Of a DNA stretch of 64,000 nucleotides, positions 52,584 through 64,000 are shown piece by piece. The notes beneath the pieces were generated by a model. It saw only the letters and a program-made list of their open reading frames with translations, was not told where the DNA came from and did no database searches. A program made the translations under genes and the position numbers. The stretch lies in NCBI GenBank assembly GCA_011524645.1, contig WTJY01000161.1, positions 1 to 64,000 of the forward strand. Reading direction: 5' to 3'. Each line of letters begins with the position of its first letter. The first letter of the stretch is position 1. The DNA is from Anaerolineales bacterium. Its GTDB lineage: Bacteria; Chloroflexota; Anaerolineae; Promineifilales; Promineifilaceae.

Positions 52584-55500
52584 TCAAAATGCCTCTGTGT
52601 CATTCCTATAACGCATCAGCTGAATAAAATCTGAATGCAACTCAAGCCCATTATCTCTAAAAACAACGGCCGCTTTTTCATAAAGCGCTTTCGCCGATAT
52701 CCTGTCCCCGTCGGCCTCAGCCAATTCCCCTTCAGCCCAAAAGCGATAAGCATAATCAAACGGGAGAATATGTGGCCTCTCCCCTTGTAGGGGATCTAAA
52801 CGTCGCACCGTTTCTCGAGCCTTTGTTAGCTTTTTCAATGCTGTGTAAGTGCGGATTAAATAGGCCAATATGAGTGGTCTTTCTCGATTGTATAAATTAA
52901 TTGAGTCGAATAATTCGGCCGCATAGCTTAAACAATGCTCCGCTTGTTCAAACTTCTGTGTCAAATAATAGTATTGACCCAAACAACCATGAACAAAGCC
53001 GATTTGACGTGGTGTTGCGGTGGCACTTTCGTTCATCCACAATTGAGCCGCTTCTAAATGGCTTAACGCAATGTCATGATTATCAACCCGACCATACAGC
53101 AATCCCAGTCTTGCCTGTGTAATTAATGTACTAGGGTGTCTTTTACCAAATATCTTTTGCCGAATGACCCAAGCTTTTTCAGCAGGGGGAACCCCTTGTG
53201 TATACGCACCTTGCATATAATAAACATGTCCTAGAGTCGAGAGAGACTGAGTGATATAGGGTGTATTTTCCGGTAAAATAGCCCTTAATGTGTCCAATGA
53301 TTGTAGTAAATATGTAACAGATTGATTTAAGTCGCCCGCTTTGTAATAGGTTAATGCTAAATTGTAAAGAGTATTACCGATCTGCTTCAGATCGGAGGGC
53401 TCAATTGAGTTATACACTTCAAGCGCCTGTAAATAGTGCGCCCCCGCCTCTTCAATACGGCCGGTTCGAGCATACAGGATCGCCAAATTTTGCAGGCTTT
53501 GTGCCGTGAGCGTATGATTTTCACCAACAATGTGCCGACGAATAGCCAAGGCTTCTTCATAGTAAGGCCAAGCATCATCTAAGGAACCGAGTTCCCAAGT
53601 AATTGTTCCCAATGTATTGAGCATGAGAGCCAACAAAAGATCCGGTTCGCTTCGTCGGGTTCGTTTTTGTTGTATGGCTGTTTCTAATACGGTCCGTGCA
53701 ACAACCCGGTCACCAATGTCCCGCAGATGCCAAGCCCACAAAAAAGCGAGCCGAGTGCCAAAGTCATTATTTTGGATCGCCATGGCCGCCGTAATCGTTT
53801 GCAAATGAGCTGTATCTATAAGCAAATGGCCCAAGAAACGGGTATTGTCATATTGCTCATCTAGTAAACGAATCAGATATTGAGCGACAATAGTTTGTGC
53901 CTCGGTTGCCCGTTGGCTAAATTTTTTCTGGGCATAGACCGCTAATAAGCGATGAATTTGGACAGTTTCAGCCCCCTCTGCATGCAAAATGCCGAGATCA
54001 ATCAACCGATTTAAGCCATCCGTCGCCAATAAAATTTCTCTATAATCAGCCGACTCGCCCGCTACACAATCTATCAAAGTTGACTGGGGAATAGGTATAC
54101 CATAGGCGAAATTGACCACACACGCGAGCAAAAGAAGAGCCATCGCATCCACTTCATCTTCTGGGCTCAGCTTCTCCAAAATTAAAGCAAATGTCCGGGT
54201 GATACGGAGCTCATGACCTGTAGGGGACTCAGTTAGCCCATGCGCTTGTAGCGATGGGTGTTGAAATAAATCTCCATCACTGAGTTGCGCCAGATATTGA
54301 TCAGGCTTGAGTCGCTGATAACGACGCAAAAAACGGCCCGCTAGATAAAGTGCTAAGGGCAGATGCTCTAATTCTATAGCGATTTTTTTAGCGGTCTGGG
54401 GAGCTAACAGAGGAACAAGCTTTTGGAGTAGAGTGATGCTTTCTATTGGCTGCAAGGTGGTTAGTGGGTGAAGAATATGATTCAAATGGGTTGGCCACCG
54501 GCCACGTCGGCTCGTGACCAAGATGCGACAACCTCCCGTGACAGGAAGCCATTTTGCCAATAATTCGGCCGATTCACAGTTATCAAATATAAGCAAGCGA
54601 GGTGTCTCTTCTTGCCATGCCTGACAAACACGGCCGACCTTGTCCATATGACTCAACTTTTCCGCATCTCGGTAGAGTCGCATGCCTCTTTCTCCCCCTA
54701 TTCTGACAAGCTCATCCTCTATGGTTTGTTCATTCGCAAAGCTAAGCCAATAACAACCGCCTAAAAAACGATGGCCATAGCGGTAGCAAAACTCAACAGC
54801 CAGCTGCGTTTTGCCAATCCCTCCCATCCCGACAATGATAGCCGTAAATGTCCCAGTAACAGATTCAAAAGCCTGTGCAATCTCTAGCAATACATGCTCA
54901 CGGCCGACAAATTCAGAATTTCGCTGATAGGGGATAATCGAATTACTTGGCAGTCCTTTCAATCGGTCTGGGCTAGCCGTGTTCTCTACAGAGACCACAC
55001 GATTAGTCCCCTCACGCTGTTGCATCTGACGCATCGCTTGTGCCAATTGATAAGTCTCTGGCTGCGGTTCAAGTTGTAATTCATCCCAGAGTTGCCGCCG
55101 ACTCAATTCATAGAGTTGCCAAGCTCGCTCCCCTTGGCCAGTGTGTCCTAGAAACTGTAAGACAAAAGTCAGCGGCGCTTCATCGAGTGGGTCCAATGCT
55201 AGCCAACGCTGTGCAGTGCTTAGTCCATCGAGCCACAGTGACTGCGCCAAATAGGATTGGCAAACCTCCTCATAGGCGAACCAAACGCGCCGTCTCCATT
55301 GTGCACGAACTATTTGAAGCCATTCATTAAATACCGGGGCGTCTTCCACATATAAATTGTTTAGCAATGGCCCTTTGTAAAGCTCTAAAGCATGATTAAT
55401 TTGCGCCACGTCCCTAGATTCTAGATGAGATTCTAATTGATGCAGGTCAATTAACGTGTTTGAGTAAGGGATAAAGCTCAGATGCGTTCGTGAAGACTCA

Positions 55501-55778
55501 ATCATCGGCACAAGCTGACGCACCCGCTTCACAGTTGTGCGTAAAGCGGCCTGTGCTTTTCTTGTACTCCCTCTTTCCCACAGCAAATCGATAATGTGCT
55601 CGCGTGATTGCGGCCGGTTTTGAAGAATCAGATACGCTAAAAGAGCTGAGCCCTTTTGTCTACGGATGATCGGAGATGTTTGTCCATCTTTTTCTATTGA
55701 TAAGTCGCCAAACAGTTTAATGTTGAACATCGTGGTTGAGGTGTTTGAGATGGTTGATTTGTTGTATTCATGGCTCAT
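52584..55778 (-). CDS. SARP-type transcriptional regulator with NB-ARC and TPR domains
   Basis: A 1,064-residue regulator of AfsR-like layout: an N-terminal winged helix (LFGDLSIEKDGQTSPIIRRQKGS, LLWERGSTRKAQAALRTTVKRVRQ), a BTAD domain (about 105-245), and an NB-ARC/STAND ATPase with Walker A GMGGIGKT at 317-324, Walker B RLLIFDNCE and RILVTSRRGRW. At least six TPR units run from about 680 on (WPYYEEALAIRRHIVGENH and similar). Ligand or phospho-signals on the TPR part would drive NTP-dependent oligomerisation and activation. It faces the giant surface-protein gene across 303 bases, where SARP-like direct repeats lie. The ATG at 55730 (MFNIKLFGDL) is a possible shorter start. Confidence 0.9.
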   Translation of the reverse strand: MSHEYNKSTISNTSTTMFNIKLFGDLSIEKDGQTSPIIRRQKGSALLAYLILQNRPQSREHIIDLLWERGSTRKAQAALRTTVKRVRQLVPMIESSRTHLSFIPYSNTLIDLHQLESHLESRDVAQINHALELYKGPLLNNLYVEDAPVFNEWLQIVRAQWRRRVWFAYEEVCQSYLAQSLWLDGLSTAQRWLALDPLDEAPLTFVLQFLGHTGQGERAWQLYELSRRQLWDELQLEPQPETYQLAQAMRQMQQREGTNRVVSVENTASPDRLKGLPSNSIIPYQRNSEFVGREHVLLEIAQAFESVTGTFTAIIVGMGGIGKTQLAVEFCYRYGHRFLGGCYWLSFANEQTIEDELVRIGGERGMRLYRDAEKLSHMDKVGRVCQAWQEETPRLLIFDNCESAELLAKWLPVTGGCRILVTSRRGRWPTHLNHILHPLTTLQPIESITLLQKLVPLLAPQTAKKIAIELEHLPLALYLAGRFLRRYQRLKPDQYLAQLSDGDLFQHPSLQAHGLTESPTGHELRITRTFALILEKLSPEDEVDAMALLLLACVVNFAYGIPIPQSTLIDCVAGESADYREILLATDGLNRLIDLGILHAEGAETVQIHRLLAVYAQKKFSQRATEAQTIVAQYLIRLLDEQYDNTRFLGHLLIDTAHLQTITAAMAIQNNDFGTRLAFLWAWHLRDIGDRVVARTVLETAIQQKRTRRSEPDLLLALMLNTLGTITWELGSLDDAWPYYEEALAIRRHIVGENHTLTAQSLQNLAILYARTGRIEEAGAHYLQALEVYNSIEPSDLKQIGNTLYNLALTYYKAGDLNQSVTYLLQSLDTLRAILPENTPYITQSLSTLGHVYYMQGAYTQGVPPAEKAWVIRQKIFGKRHPSTLITQARLGLLYGRVDNHDIALSHLEAAQLWMNESATATPRQIGFVHGCLGQYYYLTQKFEQAEHCLSYAAELFDSINLYNRERPLILAYLIRTYTALKKLTKARETVRRLDPLQGERPHILPFDYAYRFWAEGELAEADGDRISAKALYEKAAVVFRDNGLELHSDFIQLMRYRNDTEAF

Positions 55779-56081
55779 TTTAATGGATTCTATAACGATC
55801 CAGCATATTTAGAAAAATTTATTTCTAGCGTCATTTTTACCGATTTTACGCGCTTGTCCAGCGGTCACGCACCGGTCACGCAACTATTTTATAATAAATA
55901 GTCAACTAAATTTTACGAGATGCTAAAAAATCAATTGATACAGTACAAAACGCCTATTTCCCCTTAAAAAATTTAAGATCGATTTAACATTTCTTGCTTT
56001 TTAGCCTCTAGACTTAGTTACACGGTCGCCTCCGGCTGGCTCTTGCTAGTTGTTTATCGTCGCTACTTCTTAGGAATTATT
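55779..56081. other. Divergent regulatory region between SARP gene and giant surface gene
   Basis: A 303-base AT-rich spacer with no ORF. It holds the SARP-style operator/promoter listed separately, a leader of about 180 bases for the giant gene, and a TAGGA ribosome site 7 bases before its ATG (56082). I see no clear promoter for the SARP gene itself. Confidence 0.7.
55863..55895 (+). promoter_or_regulatory. SARP-type direct repeats and -10 box for the giant gene
   Basis: GGTCACGCA occurs at 55863-55871 and again at 55874-55882, exactly 11 bp apart, and TATAAT follows at 55890-55895. Known SARP sites are direct repeats spaced 11 bp (one helical turn) that take the place of the -35 box, ending about 8 bp before the -10. 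The fit is close. The site is read toward the giant gene. Confidence 0.7.
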
Positions 56082-59000
56082 ATGTCGTATAAATCCCTTA
56101 AATTCTGGGCCTTTGCATTCATCTTATCCGGTATTGCAATCTTACAAACCATTTCCCCAGTTGCCTTAGCGCAACAAGCGGACCCTACGGCCGCTGATGC
56201 GGTTCAAAGCGCATGGGATTTGGCCAAAGACGCAGCAACATACCACTACACATCTGATATCAAACAAACCACTTATCCCGCACCGGCCATAGAAAATATA
56301 GGCAAGCCGCCACGTGTAGATAACTTTCTGGCGATTGGTGAATTTGACCAAATCGCGGAAAAAATGAGCCTTGAGTTGACCACGCAAGACAAGCAATGGG
56401 TTGAAGTCGAAATTGATGGCTTAGAAGCACGTGGCCGAACCAGTGTAGATGGGGAATGGGAATCACTGGGTTCATTAGATGAGTTTCTGATTCCTGGTGG
56501 CGACCCACTCGGTTTTCTAGCCGGAGCCACCTATATCAAAGCTTTGCCAGCAACAAATAGTAACGGTGATGAATCGCTTTCTCTTTACGCCTTCTCTTTC
56601 TCAGGCTACCAGTTCGGCCGTTTCATTACCGACGAGGTGACCCAAAAATTGATCGCTTCGGGAACATTAATGCCTGACCATCAAGCAGAAATCCCACCGA
56701 TCTATCATCAAATGACAGGCAGCGGGGAAATAGCGATCAATTCGGCCGGTTATCCCACTTGGATCAAGATCGATTTAGACATAGGGACATTAGAAACGGG
56801 TGAAGAAGCGACAATCGATGTCTTTTTGACCTATAAGGATTTTTCGGCCGAGCCGGCCGAACTAATCGATAACCCAACAGCCGTTTGGTTTACCCCTCAA
56901 ACATTTCTACAAAACGTCGCGGTGCAAAACCCAGAGCTACCGAATCAAGTCGCCATCACGATCGCCCTCTTACTCTTTTCTCTAGCGCTATCATTCCTCG
57001 TTTGGCATACATGGCGTAGCCAGTTGTTCTATAAAGCGGTGGCAGGCTCAATTACAGTTTTAATGCTGGCGGGCCCCTTCTTGCAAGTGGCCAGTGCCCA
57101 AGCCTATCATGGCCGTTTGCAACCACTCTTGAATGAACCGAACAACCAAACCCCAGAAGAAGCGGCCTATGAAGCGATCGCCGAGCACCAAGCAAGTGAT
57201 GTTTGGCATCCGCAACAGGATCCTTTAACACGCGAGCAAGACATGTTCGCTTTTCCGGAATTATCAGCAGAACTAGATGGCTCGGCGGCCGTTTCGGCCG
57301 TATCCAGCAACGCCATTACCTCTACGGTTGATACCGATGGAGATGGGGTCAGTGATGTCATTGAAGAATCGCTCGAATTGTGTTCCGGCCCAAGCGGGAC
57401 CTTTTGTGCGGGAGTAACGAACTCGACAGACAGCGATGGGGATGGCCTAACGGACGGGGAAGAGGTCAACCAGCTAGGAACCCTTGCCGATCATGCCGAC
57501 ACAGATCATGATGGTTTAAGCGACTATCTTGAAGTAAAAGGATTTTCTTTGGGAGGTCAACAGTGGCACCTAGATCCAAATCAACCAGATACCAATAGTG
57601 ATGGCTTACTTGATAGTCAAGAATGTCCGATTTGGGTTGAAGCGGACCCGACTTATGATGCAAATGGGGTTTGCCCCGATTCAGATAACAACGGAACACC
57701 CGATGTATTCGATCATGATAATGATGGGGATAGTGTGCCAGACGCGGCCGATGTGTCTCCCAATCGACACTGGAGCCCCGCGGGGGGATTTAGTGATGCA
57801 ACACCATTTGAGCTAACCATAGATGAATTGACAATCGATAAGCCAACCCAAGTTCAGCTACAAATTGTGCCTACAAATCGAGATAATTTATACAATGCGG
57901 ATCGGGTGTTTGATTGGCCTTCGCCCGATTTAGCAGGACAAATTCAACGGCGTTTTACGACAACATTTGCCACAACGACCAATCCCAATATTCGGGATAC
58001 GGTGAGTTACAACAGCCGATATGGTGATGTCCGTATAACCCCATTGCTCGAAATCAAAATCCCTGCGGCTGCAGGCCACTACGGTAATTTACCAGTGAAA
58101 ACGGGTATGCCAGCGCAACGAACAAGTGCTATAACTTCTACCCAATGGCTAGATACCAGCAAAACAGACCCATTGGGCTTATCGGTCCTCGATAATCCGG
58201 CCGATAATTCCTTGACCGTTTTTGTACCAGTACAAGTCGAAACAGACCGAGCCGAAAGCAACCGCGTCGCATTTCGTGCGAACATGATGTACTACCCGTC
58301 ACAAGGAAACAATGGCGTAGCAGATTGGGGAGCGGCACATGAGTATCGGCTGATTTGGCTGGTACAAATGATTACAGAGACTTGTACAGATCCGACCAAT
58401 AATTCGACCTGCACGGAAGAACTAAAACTGGTACATATCTATAATGATGAATTTAATCTAACCGGATTAAATGTTCAAGAAGAGCATGGCTTGTCAGTGG
58501 CGGTTATGTATGAGAATCCCTCGACCGATAGTGATCGTACGAGCGAAGACTCGTTATGGCAATTAGCCTATGGCTTGGGAAACACCTTTTTGCGCGGTCG
58601 TGACTGTGATTCTTTAGACGCCAGCAATGTCTGTCAAAGTGATGGGAATCGTGATGTGACAATCGCCAATATGGCGACCTTTGTTGGCCAATATGATTTA
58701 GACACCCAACCGGTCTCTACGGCCGTATTTAATTATGAACATACCGGATTTCTGTCCCACATCATGATGACAGAGACCAAAAAGATCTTAAACACCCATT
58801 TCGACCCCTATAAAACCCAAATGAACCCAACAATCTTGTTCGCCCAAGAACAAGATGCACGTGCTTTAAATTTAGAGTCATTTAGCAGCATGCCGACCAG
58901 TGGAACCGGCATTACCGTCACAATGAGTGCCACCAATGCGCCACGACGTATTATCGGGGGGATGAGCTGGGGGCCATTCACCTATAACACCACAACGAGC

Positions 59001-62000
59001 GATTGGGAATCGATGAATGTCACTCAGTATGTGAGTGGGCTAAAGACGCGATTACAGCAAATTCCTTACTTTCAACCAGCTACAAACGACTTGACGAATC
59101 AGTATGAAGCACTCGGCCGTGTGCGCTTTATGCAAGCCTATTATTTAAGTTTAGTCAAAGGTACTTCGGCGATTTTATCAATTGATGGAATCACAATATG
59201 GTCCCCCTCACCAGATGTGCCTGAGTATCGGTACGGGCCAGAGACCCCGGGAGGAACCTTTTCTGGGGCGACATATACCGCATATTACACGTTTCTTGGT
59301 CTGCAATATGCCTATGGCAATGCACAACGAGGCAAGGCTCGTGTTCGCGCCTTTTTATTGGGTATGGGCAAATCATTTGGCGAATTTTCGAATGGCCATT
59401 TAAGCACTTGGCAACGTGCCTCGACGTTACAAGGCGCGAAAAAAGGCTTTTTTATTGCGACCAATGCGATCTCAGCCGGTGCTGCGGCCGCCTCCTTTGC
59501 GGGTGTAGTCATTTTTACAATAGCGGCCTTTAGTGGTGACCAGCGACTGATGGATCAAGCGGTTATCGTGCTAAACGTCACAACCGCTGTTTCGTCATTA
59601 TTAGTAATAAACTCAAACATCTCGTACATGATTCATCTCAACAAGGCGCGAGGTGCCTCGGACTTATCGGCAAAAGCACAAACACTCAAAAAAGGGGGAG
59701 GGGTTAACGCCTTGACCACCAGCAACCTAGTGATGCAGGTCGCCACCATTTGGGCATTCGCTTTGATTACATTGGCCGTTAAGCAAATTCGACATGGGAC
59801 GATCCTTTATGACTTGACCGTCGCAAATGCGATCGCTCAAACGATGGTGGCGGTCATTGTGTTCGCCTTTGGGGCGTTAGTCGGCTATGTGGCGGTGCTT
59901 TTGGTCGCTGGCCTAGCTGGGCCGCTAGTCGGCACCATTGCGGTTATGGTCATCTATTTAGTAGACGCGCTCGTCTATTTAGTAACACTGCTTCTTTACC
60001 ATGTGTTCGGTGTGGGTCGGCCGTTCTCAATTCTGGAAGAGCTAGCCAAAGTGATCGCCGAAGCCTTATACGATATCCAGTCAATTGTGACCAATCTCAA
60101 TCCAAATGGCCGACTTCAGTTTGCGCCATCATTTGCCTTAGGCGATGATAAATATGGATTCACCTTGCAGAATACAGGGGTATTAACCTTTAATATCACC
60201 AATACGATTACATTTAATGGCACACCAAACGAAGGGCGTATGCCGACCTTCCGCTATCGTTTAGGAGAATATTCACGCGAGGGGCATGCAGGATTGGCTC
60301 AAAATCAAATGTTGTTTGAATGGCGCAATGTGAGTCAAGCTTATAACAACACACAAAACTATACGACGCGAACCCTAACCACAACCGTTAACTTTGCAAA
60401 TGTGGGTGCCGGCCGTGATCGTGTGTTGAATGATCTCTACCTGATCGAATCATTTGCGGTGCCGACCAAAGGATGCTGGACTGTTGCGGGTCAGTGTACC
60501 TATGATGATGTAAAAGACTCCATTCCGATCAATATCGGGGCGTCCCAAGCGTTCGATATTTTACCCAACACAATCGCCGAATTTGCAAATTGGTATAGCT
60601 GGCTGGGAGATGGCAATGCGATATCTCCGACCGTGTCGGTCGCAGCAATTCCAGTCCCTATCGATTATGACAATGACCAAGTAATTGCCAGTCTGGATGG
60701 AGATGACACGCGTTGGGATATGGATAGTGATGGCTTAACTGACTATTACGAATTAACCCATGGCACGGACCCAGGCAATGAGGACACAGATGAAGATGGC
60801 TTGTCTGATGCGGCTGAAATACGTGAAGGGACCGACCCCCGAAAAGCGGACACAGATGGCGATGGGTTGAACGACTATATCGAAACGGTGGAAGGATGGT
60901 TAATTCCTTACGCGGGTGGAACAACCCGTATCTGGTCCAACCCATTCTTAAGTGATGCGGATGGGGACAAACTAAGCGACCTTGAAGAGTACATGTTCGG
61001 CTTTAATCCTTATGTACATACCGACCCAAGCTTAATCGATACCTTAATTCAAATCGATGACTTTACGGTCAATGAAACGAAAGCGCCAATCCTTTATCTG
61101 CCCTTTGATGAATCGACTACAGCCGATGTCTTCACCGACCTCGCCACCAACAACCTAGATGCAGTTTGTGACCGCACCAATGGGAAATGCCCTCAAGTAG
61201 GCGTGACCGGCCGGTACGGCAACGCTATTTTATTGGATGGCAGTGATGACTCAGTCTATATCGAAGACAACGATTTGGTTGATTTTGGTCCCAATGACGA
61301 CTTTACCGTCGCGGTCTGGGTAAAAGTGGGTACACAAGTAAATACAACAAACCCCGACAATGACATTATCGAAGAATGGGGCACCGGCACCGGTGGTTAC
61401 CCATTTGTCATTCGCTATCTCCGCAGCTCTGGCACAATCAGTGCGGGTCGATACGATGAAGCCAATAACCCTTATATCAACTCAACCACATCGATTAATG
61501 ATGGTGATTTCCACCATATCGCTTTTACGCGCTTAAATGGGACACTCTCTTTGTATATCGATGGACAATTAGAAGGCTCAATGGCCGATAGCACAACCAA
61601 TTCAACGGCAAACACCAGCCGCTTACATATTGGTAGTCGCGGGGCACATAACTACTTTGCCGGCGCGATCGACGAATTGGTGATCTATGATCGCGGGATG
61701 ACAGCCGCTCAAGTTCAGCGGGTACAGGCCGGAGAGTACAATTTTGACGACCTCGTCGTCTCTCCTGGTGATAACTTGCAATACAGTGCAACCGTGACCA
61801 ACACCAACGCAGCCCGTGGCGCAGATGGTCTGCTCTTTGCTGAATCAACCTATATTTCTCCAACGATTCCTATCCCAGAGACCCGTTTAGAGTTTGAGGT
61901 GGATGAGACCCGTACTTCATGGGGGTATTTCAATGGGGGTGGTACGCTGACATGTGCCACGGCCGGTGCGGCCGATTGCCCCGCCGTAGACAATGGTGTA

Positions 62001-64000
62001 GTCACCCTTGACGGCGCAGATGATCATTTCGACATCACCTCGATGTCAGCCACGCGGATCAGCTTTGACGTCAATTTAGACCGCGCTCCGGCAGTCGGAG
62101 AGAAAATGTACGTTCTCGATAGCGCCGAGCCCTTTGCTAGCCAGTATTACTTCCAATATGTCGACATCTATTTTGAATACGATACAGCCACAACCGCCCG
62201 CTTGGTCATGGAGACCCGCTGGTCACAACAAGCAAACGATGAGGTGATTAACATTGTTAGTTACCCCAGTTTCCCCATCAATACATGGCGCAAAGTTGAA
62301 TATACAGAGACCGATGTCAATGGCTTCGGGGTGGATGGTGTCCGGATTTATGATCAAGCGGGGACATTAGTATTCATAGAAGAGATCGTTCCTCCCAGCG
62401 TGCTCGTAACGATTGGGCCAGGGGCGGTTGGCAACAGTAACGATGGATCTGGAGGCCTTGATGGGCAACTCGATAATTTGAACGTGCAAGCTGGCACCTT
62501 CTACCAGCTCTTAGCGGCCGACTTTAACCACTACCCCGAAATGTTCCAAAGCAAGCCACGCACATCTAGCGTGCCAGTTAATGCGGGTGAGTGTGCCCAA
62601 GCTAACTGTCCAACGTTGACCCGTACGGGTCAGTTTGACTCAGCCGTCAACTTTAATAACGATACAACCAAGAAAATCGTCATCTCGAATGTCAATTTAA
62701 GTGGCGATTTCACCTTATCTGGTTGGTTTAATGCCAATGGCACAACGCTTGGATTCCTAGCAAATACGTTTGCCGATGCAGTCGATGCCTCTAGTAACAC
62801 GGACAATATGCAACTGACAGTTGATTCCGGTCTCTTAAAAGTATGGGCCGGCAATAGCGGGAACAACCAAAATCTTCAGGTTGCTCATCCGGCCGGATGG
62901 AACCATTTCACCTTTGTGCGTGACAGCACAGGCATTCATCTTTATCTAAATGGTGCTCTTGCCGCTTCAGACACCAGCCGGACCCCAAATTTACTGGCAA
63001 ATGACACCGTTGTGCTGGGGAACTTTATAGATGCTATCGGCTATGACGGGTCACTAGATGAATTCGCGATCTTCTCTTATGCCCTAGACGTGAGTGAAAT
63101 TGAGCTGTTAGCTGCAGGGAAATATCCAAATCCCGGTATCAATATCGCCAATCCCTATCAGAATTTTAATGTGCCAGCCAGTTCATCACGGATCATAACC
63201 GGAACAGCACAGATCGAACCAAGCGTGGTTCCAAACAGTGTGCATCGCTTCGACCAAACGGTTGATGTAGCCTTTGACACGACCATTCCGGCCGTGACAT
63301 TGCCTTCATTGGCGGCGCACCTCAGTGGCTCCCCTCCAATCCTCCATATCCACATGCCGTTCGAAGAACGGCCGGGCCATATTGGTGCCTATGAAAATAC
63401 AGCATCTGTATTTACCGGATTCACGTGTGCAACGGCCGCAACTTGCCCAGAATCAGGGGTCGAAACAGTATCCGGCCGAGGCATCTATTTCGATGGTGTG
63501 GATGACCTTCTTACAGATGACAGTTCAAATATGGCACATCTGGCATTCTGGGTAAAACCGGAGCAAGAGACAGGAACAATAGCCGCAAGTGTAGACAATA
63601 CCGATCCCACCATTAACTACCACTTCGATATGAGTGGGTTTACGGCCGCCACAGAGTTTAGCTGTAACATCTCGATTCCTTATAGTCTCACCCCACAAGA
63701 ATGGACCCATATTATTCTGGGTCATAGTGATAACACGACTGATCTATATGTAAATGGGCAACTAGCAGGTAGCGTCTCCGGCGGCTATACAGTTTGTGGT
63801 TCACTCGGAACCCTCAGGCGTTTGGGGAATAATATGGCGGGCACCTCAGCATTCAAAGGGTTTCTAGATGATGTCCGCGTTTATAACAACAACTTTATGA
63901 ACGCCTCCCATGCGCAAGCCATCTATGAAGGGAGTGCGCCACTCATGCACTTCGACTTTGACGAAGAAAGCGACCGCGTAAACTTCAAAGATCGGACAGC
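56082..64000 (+). CDS. Giant exported TSP3/LamG surface protein, C-terminus beyond the window
   Basis: One frame stays open from ATG 56082 to the window end (at least 2,639 residues), checked by translation. It has a signal peptide (cleavage after ALA, about residue 30) and an N-terminal domain (35-280) reminiscent of lipid-carrier LppX/LolA folds. One or two helices lie at about 287-341. Calcium-binding thrombospondin type 3 repeats (DTDGDGVSD, DSDGDGLTDGEE) follow at 417-560, then a large unknown region with a four-to-six-helix membrane cluster at about 1120-1310. A second TSP3 block lies at 1525-1647 (DSDGLTDYYELTHGTDP). Then come four LamG-like jelly rolls (about 1668-1880, 1933-2143, 2143-2343 and 2419-2617) and the start of a fifth. 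It is likely an adhesin or sheath protein controlled by the divergent SARP regulator. Confidence 0.85.
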   Translation, partial: MSYKSLKFWAFAFILSGIAILQTISPVALAQQADPTAADAVQSAWDLAKDAATYHYTSDIKQTTYPAPAIENIGKPPRVDNFLAIGEFDQIAEKMSLELTTQDKQWVEVEIDGLEARGRTSVDGEWESLGSLDEFLIPGGDPLGFLAGATYIKALPATNSNGDESLSLYAFSFSGYQFGRFITDEVTQKLIASGTLMPDHQAEIPPIYHQMTGSGEIAINSAGYPTWIKIDLDIGTLETGEEATIDVFLTYKDFSAEPAELIDNPTAVWFTPQTFLQNVAVQNPELPNQVAITIALLLFSLALSFLVWHTWRSQLFYKAVAGSITVLMLAGPFLQVASAQAYHGRLQPLLNEPNNQTPEEAAYEAIAEHQASDVWHPQQDPLTREQDMFAFPELSAELDGSAAVSAVSSNAITSTVDTDGDGVSDVIEESLELCSGPSGTFCAGVTNSTDSDGDGLTDGEEVNQLGTLADHADTDHDGLSDYLEVKGFSLGGQQWHLDPNQPDTNSDGLLDSQECPIWVEADPTYDANGVCPDSDNNGTPDVFDHDNDGDSVPDAADVSPNRHWSPAGGFSDATPFELTIDELTIDKPTQVQLQIVPTNRDNLYNADRVFDWPSPDLAGQIQRRFTTTFATTTNPNIRDTVSYNSRYGDVRITPLLEIKIPAAAGHYGNLPVKTGMPAQRTSAITSTQWLDTSKTDPLGLSVLDNPADNSLTVFVPVQVETDRAESNRVAFRANMMYYPSQGNNGVADWGAAHEYRLIWLVQMITETCTDPTNNSTCTEELKLVHIYNDEFNLTGLNVQEEHGLSVAVMYENPSTDSDRTSEDSLWQLAYGLGNTFLRGRDCDSLDASNVCQSDGNRDVTIANMATFVGQYDLDTQPVSTAVFNYEHTGFLSHIMMTETKKILNTHFDPYKTQMNPTILFAQEQDARALNLESFSSMPTSGTGITVTMSATNAPRRIIGGMSWGPFTYNTTTSDWESMNVTQYVSGLKTRLQQIPYFQPATNDLTNQYEALGRVRFMQAYYLSLVKGTSAILSIDGITIWSPSPDVPEYRYGPETPGGTFSGATYTAYYTFLGLQYAYGNAQRGKARVRAFLLGMGKSFGEFSNGHLSTWQRASTLQGAKKGFFIATNAISAGAAAASFAGVVIFTIAAFSGDQRLMDQAVIVLNVTTAVSSLLVINSNISYMIHLNKARGASDLSAKAQTLKKGGGVNALTTSNLVMQVATIWAFALITLAVKQIRHGTILYDLTVANAIAQTMVAVIVFAFGALVGYVAVLLVAGLAGPLVGTIAVMVIYLVDALVYLVTLLLYHVFGVGRPFSILEELAKVIAEALYDIQSIVTNLNPNGRLQFAPSFALGDDKYGFTLQNTGVLTFNITNTITFNGTPNEGRMPTFRYRLGEYSREGHAGLAQNQMLFEWRNVSQAYNNTQNYTTRTLTTTVNFANVGAGRDRVLNDLYLIESFAVPTKGCWTVAGQCTYDDVKDSIPINIGASQAFDILPNTIAEFANWYSWLGDGNAISPTVSVAAIPVPIDYDNDQVIASLDGDDTRWDMDSDGLTDYYELTHGTDPGNEDTDEDGLSDAAEIREGTDPRKADTDGDGLNDYIETVEGWLIPYAGGTTRIWSNPFLSDADGDKLSDLEEYMFGFNPYVHTDPSLIDTLIQIDDFTVNETKAPILYLPFDESTTADVFTDLATNNLDAVCDRTNGKCPQVGVTGRYGNAILLDGSDDSVYIEDNDLVDFGPNDDFTVAVWVKVGTQVNTTNPDNDIIEEWGTGTGGYPFVIRYLRSSGTISAGRYDEANNPYINSTTSINDGDFHHIAFTRLNGTLSLYIDGQLEGSMADSTTNSTANTSRLHIGSRGAHNYFAGAIDELVIYDRGMTAAQVQRVQAGEYNFDDLVVSPGDNLQYSATVTNTNAARGADGLLFAESTYISPTIPIPETRLEFEVDETRTSWGYFNGGGTLTCATAGAADCPAVDNGVVTLDGADDHFDITSMSATRISFDVNLDRAPAVGEKMYVLDSAEPFASQYYFQYVDIYFEYDTATTARLVMETRWSQQANDEVINIVSYPSFPINTWRKVEYTETDVNGFGVDGVRIYDQAGTLVFIEEIVPPSVLVTIGPGAVGNSNDGSGGLDGQLDNLNVQAGTFYQLLAADFNHYPEMFQSKPRTSSVPVNAGECAQANCPTLTRTGQFDSAVNFNNDTTKKIVISNVNLSGDFTLSGWFNANGTTLGFLANTFADAVDASSNTDNMQLTVDSGLLKVWAGNSGNNQNLQVAHPAGWNHFTFVRDSTGIHLYLNGALAASDTSRTPNLLANDTVVLGNFIDAIGYDGSLDEFAIFSYALDVSEIELLAAGKYPNPGINIANPYQNFNVPASSSRIITGTAQIEPSVVPNSVHRFDQTVDVAFDTTIPAVTLPSLAAHLSGSPPILHIHMPFEERPGHIGAYENTASVFTGFTCATAATCPESGVETVSGRGIYFDGVDDLLTDDSSNMAHLAFWVKPEQETGTIAASVDNTDPTINYHFDMSGFTAATEFSCNISIPYSLTPQEWTHIILGHSDNTTDLYVNGQLAGSVSGGYTVCGSLGTLRRLGNNMAGTSAFKGFLDDVRVYNNNFMNASHAQAIYEGSAPLMHFDFDEESDRVNFKDRT

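Follow-up and report, generated by a model that had tools for sequence, protein, structure and literature searches.

A giant TSP3/LamG protein with a mid-chain membrane block and its family in Chloroflexota

Can a chain of several thousand residues that places a cluster of hydrophobic helices between two β-rich, apparently external halves be a single protein, and how might such a chain be held and switched on? The question is raised by the end of a 64,000-nucleotide stretch of DNA (the window), which is the start of a 77,396 bp contig (G000:C325) in a draft genome of 5.8 Mb. Giant surface proteins built from LamG, TSP3 and Ig domains are already known as a kind. Chloroflexota grow as filaments, mats and activated-sludge flocs, and some are predators; to our knowledge, their giant surface proteins are largely unannotated.

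The reading frame and its family

The frame is open from its ATG to the end of the window, and an in-frame TTG lies upstream at 56043. A sequence-only reading had reported a single frame of at least 2,639 residues leaving the window, with no stop codon inside it. Both statements were borne out: when the contig was followed further, as had been proposed, the stop was found at contig position 68825, giving an uninterrupted protein of 4,247 amino acids (Table 1). A frameshift or stop, or homologues with the two halves as separate genes, had been named as evidence against one protein; the frame is intact and homologues keep both halves together. The order of signal peptide, N-domain, TSP3, β-region and polytopic block is real. 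A single conserved core spans the first ~1,650 residues and is made up of the signal peptide, an LppX/LolA-fold domain, a TM pair, TSP3, a β-region, the polytopic block, a second β-region and a second TSP3 block.

Table 1. Features of the giant gene and its divergent neighbour (positions in the window).
Feature	Coordinates	Strand	Basis
AfsR-type large SARP regulator (BTAD, NB-ARC, TPR), 1,064 aa, divergent neighbour	52584..55778	-	Pfam
SARP-type operator, CGGTCACGCA twice (55862-55871 and 55873-55882), 11-bp period	55862..55882	+	Sequence
TATAAT −10 element pointing at the giant gene	55890..55895	+	Sequence, spacing
Giant ORF	56082..64000 (stop at contig 68825)	+	Residues 1-2639 of 4,247 aa
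N-terminal signal peptide, residues 1-31, without lipobox cysteine	56082..56174	+	Sequence, hydropathy
N-domain, LppX/LolA/RseB fold, residues 32-285	56175..56936	+	AlphaFold2 model and Foldseek
TM1, residues 286-309, then basic, presumably cytoplasmic loop	56937..57008	+	Hydropathy, loop charge
TM2/internal signal-peptide-like segment, residues 319-341, putative signal peptidase I site after A341	57036..57104	+	Column conservation
TSP3 block 1, residues 415-560	57324..57761	+	Pfam TSP3_bac; invariant Asp columns
β-rich region 1, residues 575-1045, without known family or fold	57804..59216	+	AlphaFold2, Foldseek, alignment A1
Polytopic block, residues 1057-1304	59250..59993	+	Hydropathy, loop charge
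β-rich region 2, residues 1330-1515, conserved C1465/C1472 and 'DILP' motif	60069..60626	+	Alignments, AlphaFold2
TSP3 block 2, residues 1525-1640, GWL..Y..TRVWSDP insert	60654..61001	+	Pfam, alignment conservation
LamG domain 1, residues 1719-1879	61236..61718	+	Pfam PF13385, 4e-27
LamG domain, residues 2195-2340	62664..63101	+	Pfam PF13385, 1e-17
LamG domain, residues 2487-2603	63540..63890	+	Pfam PF13385, 5e-17

A search with residues 560-1520 alone found relatives in 14 of the order's 56 genomes, with at least nine further copies in the genome of the window itself and many in genome G007; nearly all sit within very long frames free of stops. The whole of the first 1,660 residues aligns in nineteen members at 25-46% identity. 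An HMM of residues 30-1655 matched more than 40 proteins, in most of them without a break, and these homologues keep the core order in one frame, closed genomes included. A search for homologues of the same order across Chloroflexota, which had been suggested with the sequence-only reading, placed the family in 77 of 396 genomes of the class (60 of 222 genera; frames of up to 9,247 aa) and, at a stricter threshold than that used for the class, in 22 of 400 genomes of the phylum. A tblastn search of genome contigs with the window core alone gave no relatives, viral contigs contained no relative of the family and plasmids gave no tblastn match to it. Alignment A1 was too divergent for patterns; the tighter alignment A3 gave usable ones.

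The members are mostly MAG sequences, and copies with a broken frame (L059 and others) were taken frame by frame as they stand. Named relatives include Herpetosiphon giganteus DSM 589, a Herpetosiphonaceae MAG and a Caldilineaceae MAG. Full-length copies are present in a closed genome of 5,258,541 bp (3,857 aa), in a closed genome of 4,684,931 bp (4,024 and 3,856 aa) and in a genome whose main contig (of three) has 6,346,587 bp (4,379 aa); we take the three closed genomes with copies to be those of Chloroflexus aurantiacus J-10-fl, C. aggregans DSM 9485 and H. aurantiacus DSM 785. With H. giganteus DSM 589, these make the family testable in culture. Copies from the genome of the window fall into several regions of the tree, where they form clades of four, three and two such copies, which indicates that the family expanded within this lineage. 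At G085:C1:600226-602492, in a one-contig genome, a copy contains in-frame TGA codons and short frames and is either a pseudogene or affected by sequence errors. A MAG labelled uncultured Ilumatobacter (L054) contributes a full member on a contig assigned to Actinomycetota; in the tree this copy clusters with one from Chloroflexota, which points to transfer or mis-binning.

Downstream of the giant gene lies a gene for a PMP β-helix protein of 1,535 aa (C325:69002-73609) that has a C-terminal ending in common with the giant; a consensus scan found no terminator or promoter between the two. Directly after this gene, past the window, a remnant similar to window residues 64-106 of the N-module (C325:73708-73854) is a sign of recent duplication and decay.

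Head, membrane block and tail

The signal peptide of the sequence-only reading is supported by hydropathy; residues 1-40 contain no cysteine and so lack the lipobox cysteine of LppX-type lipoproteins. The N-domain had been called LppX-like, and structure prediction agrees. The AlphaFold2 model has a pLDDT of 85-94 over most of residues 32-285, and its best Foldseek match is LppX (2byo; E 1e-6, probability 1.00, TM 0.61 by target), with LolA and RseB next among the fold matches. By sequence, Pfam LppX_LprAFG matched one of 19 members at E 0.054, too weakly for an assignment.

The conserved TM pair that follows was absent from the earlier list of parts. The loop between TM1 and TM2 is very basic, and TM2 has all of the features of a signal peptidase I substrate, namely a basic n-region, an h-region, a helix-breaking proline and small residues at −3 and −1. 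Among 44 aligned members, P332 (−10) is present in 43, residue 339 (−3) is V, A, T or S in 41, and residue 341 (−1) is Ala or Gly in 41 (Ala in 39, Gly in two more); the site pattern agrees in other copies, closed genomes included. Several members have a poor −1 residue (L090 ends YRD, L092 WQR). TM2 looks like an internal signal peptide and the giant may be made as a polyprotein; a signal peptidase I cut after A341, separating an LppX-like membrane piece of ~310 residues from the main giant, would fit this pattern. A search of eight genomes found no separate N-domain gene other than short frames; the short stand-alone N-module frame that was checked, in G000:C416, stops at the contig end.

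Pfam finds TSP3 in the protein, in keeping with the two calcium-repeat blocks read earlier. Structure prediction of residues ~560-1520 had been suggested; in the AlphaFold2 core model, β-region 1 was modelled well (pLDDT about 80-90); Foldseek gave no PDB match for the β/membrane core at E ≤ 0.001. By sequence, calcium-binding repeats were the sole PDB matches of note, and Pfam and NCBIfam detected nothing convincing beyond TSP3 in the core of the 19 members scanned. The conserved Cys pairs and calcium-type Asp repeats fit an extracytoplasmic site of the core.

The helix cluster that had been placed mid-chain (about residues 1120-1310) was recovered as five hydrophobic segments, a-e (1128-1150, 1160-1179, 1212-1233, 1248-1273 and 1282-1304), with a weak one at 1057-1078 (mean maximum KD 0.68) that in most members is not strongly hydrophobic. 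Hydropathy gives five segments in 32 of 45 members, four in seven and three in four, and no TM peak beyond residue about 1312 of the giant. Segments d and e make up a hairpin whose turn is almost devoid of polar residues, and D1295 is nearly invariant. The AlphaFold2 model of the block is of low confidence (pLDDT about 45-78). The loops before segment a (1079-1127) and after segment b (1180-1211) are basic, those at 1151-1159 and 1234-1247 are slightly acidic, and the flanks before 1056 and after 1305 are acidic. This charge pattern would describe an N-out/C-out block, provided that the weak sixth segment also crosses. Since five clear segments make an odd number and both flanks are apparently external, an even count needs segment 1057-1078 or a re-entrant helix; a re-entrant or hairpin-type insertion is possible because that segment lacks strong hydrophobicity in most members.

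A Bacillota relative, a single frame of 3,334 aa in a genome of the same family as L059, has the order signal peptide, TSP3, β-region, membrane block, β-region 2 (DxMP motif), TSP3, Ig-like tail and three SLH domains. It lacks the whole N-module, so the core is older than, or separable from, that module. Its block has about two to three strongly hydrophobic segments, and the stretch before them is very basic. The terminal SLH domains place the C-terminal half outside the cell, with the distal half bound to the cell wall in that lineage. No Omp85 protein was found in the genome of the window by a search that was positive in 7 of 14 control genomes, which makes a monoderm envelope likely. The sequence-only reading had offered a self-anchored or self-translocating surface protein; with the C-terminal half of the SLH-tailed relative placed outside, the self-anchored form is the best reading, and nothing positive spoke for self-translocation. 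Few Bacillota genomes have a member (2 of 41 in the family of L059, 1 of 391 in that class). The Bacillota copy at L059:9752-13328, from a Peptostreptococcaceae MAG, is split into two frames near an A-run; the intact relative is in another genome of the family.

After residue 1,650, Pfam shows that the tails diverge among members. At least four LamG domains had been read in the window; three are recognized there by Pfam together with one divergent stretch, and the fourth recognized domain (residues about 2680-2840) lies just past the window end. Beyond the window the tail comprises LamG and Ig-like domains, two PMP/β-helix regions and a short C-terminal domain ending VGVFNFSLTPGQ. Across the family, some tails carry four to eight LamG domains, and PMP, β-helix and Ig types also occur; that of L045 consists of cadherin/Big/PKD arrays and that of L095 of fourteen CARDB domains and DUF11. 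Judged by this domain content, the tail is the interchangeable part of the family. Pfam scans of the tails gave no convincing enzyme or toxin domain. Matches to Toxin_R_bind_N, Pentaxin and Sialidase overlie LamG/ConA-like stretches and reflect that fold only.

A domain of ~70-80 aa ending G[VIF]FxFxL..G forms the C-termini of P0002 (C325:68553-68822) and P0003 and occurs at 26 places in the genome; all 20 matches checked end at or within two residues of the stop codon. In P0002 and P0003 neither Pfam nor NCBIfam recognizes it, and it is a candidate sorting or anchoring tag. Other family members end in YLPLV-like motifs instead. In L038, L040 and L050 the frame breaks inside the LamG tail, with the sequence continuing in another frame in at least L038; the breaks are either sequencing errors or on/off variation.

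The divergent regulator and the operator

Pfam assigns BTAD (2.5e-13), NB-ARC (5.8e-7) and TPR regions to the neighbouring regulator (P0004), which gives it the BTAD, NB-ARC/NOD, TPR layout; AfsR has the layout BTAD-NOD-TPR and afs-box operators (PMC10936776). The sequence-only reading of the giant had left out this regulator and its operator, as well as the tail domains past the window. An AfsR-type gene lies immediately upstream of the giant gene in 16 of the ~35 loci with enough sequence, and of the 12 BTAD genes in the genome of the window four flank family members. In Herpetosiphon copies the divergent neighbour differs and is histidine-kinase-like by sequence.

SARP regulators follow a rule in which 11-bp direct repeats stand 8 bp before the −10 box (PMC10936776, PMC4393881). 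Upstream of the giant gene, the TATAAT at 55890 is exactly 8 bp past the 9-nt core of the 3′ repeat. Over the 16 regulator-giant intergenic regions, a lag of 11 bp between direct repeats stands out against lags of 7-33: five loci reach p ≤ 0.01, where no other lag gives more than two, and the mean repeat run is 6.3, compared with 3.7-4.6 at the other lags. The repeats mostly have a CACG core on the strand of the giant, and −10-like hexamers, where repeats exist, usually point toward the giant rather than the regulator. An operator with the right spacing is present at the window locus and several others, and binding of the regulator to it is predicted. That the operator faces the giant gene suggests that the regulator acts on the giant and not the reverse; by analogy with SARP biology, it would switch the giant gene on.

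Proposed display, alternatives and known systems

We consider it probable that the giant is a Ca2+-stabilized adhesin or scaffold anchored in the cytoplasmic membrane of a monoderm Chloroflexota cell. The AfsR-type regulator would activate the gene through the 11-bp-period operator just upstream of the −10 box, and the chain would enter the Sec pathway by its N-terminal signal peptide. With the LppX/LolA-fold N-domain outside, TM1 would cross inward and TM2 would re-start export; TM2 would probably be cut after A341 by signal peptidase I, leaving a ~310-aa membrane-anchored LppX-like piece and a main piece of ~3,900 aa. TSP3 block 1 and β-region 1 would fold outside the membrane, the polytopic block, with its five clear segments and probably the weak sixth, would remain embedded in it, and β-region 2, TSP3 block 2 and the long LamG/Ig/β-helix tail would be displayed outside. 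The block would thereby pin the chain in its middle, with one short and one long external arm. From its domain types, the variable tail may bind glycans, surfaces or other cells. More tentatively, the core may be a self-contained display device that combines a polyprotein cut by signal peptidase I, a giant pinned mid-chain, swapped adhesive tails and an AfsR-type switch; in the strongest form of this proposal the LppX/LolA-like piece would help to insert or lipid-load the giant, or the block would be a conduit.

Whether the chain is cut at all can be argued from the TM2 site. An uncut anchored protein, in which TM2 is an ordinary helix and the LppX-like domain an attached lipid- or lipoprotein-binding head, would account for the members with a poor −1 residue and for the lack of a separate N-domain gene in the eight genomes searched, short frames aside. 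We consider it rather unlikely, as Pro at −10, a small −3 residue and Ala at −1 keep a fixed spacing in about 90% of members across deep divergence, and Bacillota members lack all of the N-module, which is therefore separable. The central block may instead be a pore or translocation module that inserts into membranes, like those of colicins or large translocating toxins; the giant would then be released or extended, and the block would enter another membrane or pass part of the chain through its own. The d-e hairpin, the nearly invariant Asp and the reduced, basic-preceded block of the Bacillota relative favour such a module, and the parity problem vanishes if the block is no classical anchor. 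It is nevertheless unlikely: the tails carry no enzyme or toxin domain in Pfam scans, Foldseek gave no match to a pore or toxin-like fold, the Bacillota form is kept on its own cell wall by SLH domains, and the five separate long segments of most members, with positive-inside-like loops, are typical of co-translational insertion.

A contact or surface sensor, with an RseB-like N-domain, a block that signals to the cytoplasm and the AfsR-type regulator as output, is suggested by RseB among the fold matches and by a regulator that adjoins the giant and an operator that faces it. We regard it as very unlikely, since no cytoplasmic signalling domain is present, the cytoplasmic loops are short and poorly conserved (alignment A1), the operator points to control of the giant by the regulator, and the Herpetosiphon copies have a different neighbour. 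That the frame is an artefact or two genes wrongly joined can be practically dismissed. The contig is from a MAG, and L038, L040 and L050 change frame inside the LamG tail; against this, the core is conserved without interruption in more than 40 frames, some of them from closed genomes, and the sole apparent split, in G000:C110, was rejected as a scaffold N-gap with duplicated flanks.

The preferred reading, an anchored and displayed adhesin or scaffold, concerns a family that is apparently undescribed and widespread in Chloroflexota. The sequence-only reading knew of no described family with this domain order; no paper describing the core family was found in the open-access literature, and Pfam and NCBIfam see only TSP3. 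What is new here is a polytopic anchor placed mid-chain with an external half on either side, a polyprotein head of LppX fold and control by a SARP, each proposed at the strength given above. The results define one family by its 1,650-aa core and suggest how it is displayed, through a mid-chain anchor, an exchangeable tail and a probable cut within the chain, and how it is switched on.

Several established systems share single elements with the giant. RTX/LapA-type features are absent: Pfam and NCBIfam find no RTX repeat family, and an N-terminal signal peptide takes the place of a type I signal. The C-terminus, VGVFNFSLTPGQ, lacks the hydrophobic tail of an LPXTG sortase anchor; for an autotransporter, Pfam finds no C-terminal barrel and the genome of the window yielded no Omp85. 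The myxobacterial CglD, MtsC and MtsD also carry TSP3 repeats on cohesion or adhesion proteins, but their NCBIfam matches are weak, restricted to TSP3 and far below the cut-offs (41.5 bits versus 400), and the matched part has no polytopic block. The LppX/LprG/LolA/RseB superfamily shares the fold of the N-domain; its members are stand-alone lipoproteins or periplasmic carriers and sensors, whereas the N-domain, without a lipobox, heads a giant polypeptide. Bacillota SLH S-layer and surface proteins resemble the Bacillota relative in its ending, whereas Chloroflexota members end in other C-terminal tags and have the polytopic membrane block in the middle. AfsR matches the neighbour in domain layout and in 11-bp repeats 8 bp before the −10 box, but its known targets are antibiotic genes in Streptomyces (PMC10936776) and the apparent target here is a giant surface protein; SARP control of the giant would extend AfsR-type control from antibiotics to cell-surface proteins. 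The SPEARE-type giants of nanohaloarchaea, exported proteins of 8,000-9,000 aa thought to mediate cell-cell contact, likewise combine a long external array with a membrane anchor; in these, about 75 Ig-like domains are followed by a TM domain and, close to the C-terminus, a cytosolic VirB4/TraG-like ATPase (PMC10266531). Pfam finds no such ATPase in the full 4,247 aa of the giant, and its membrane block, in contrast, lies at residue about 1,100-1,300 with both flanks apparently external.
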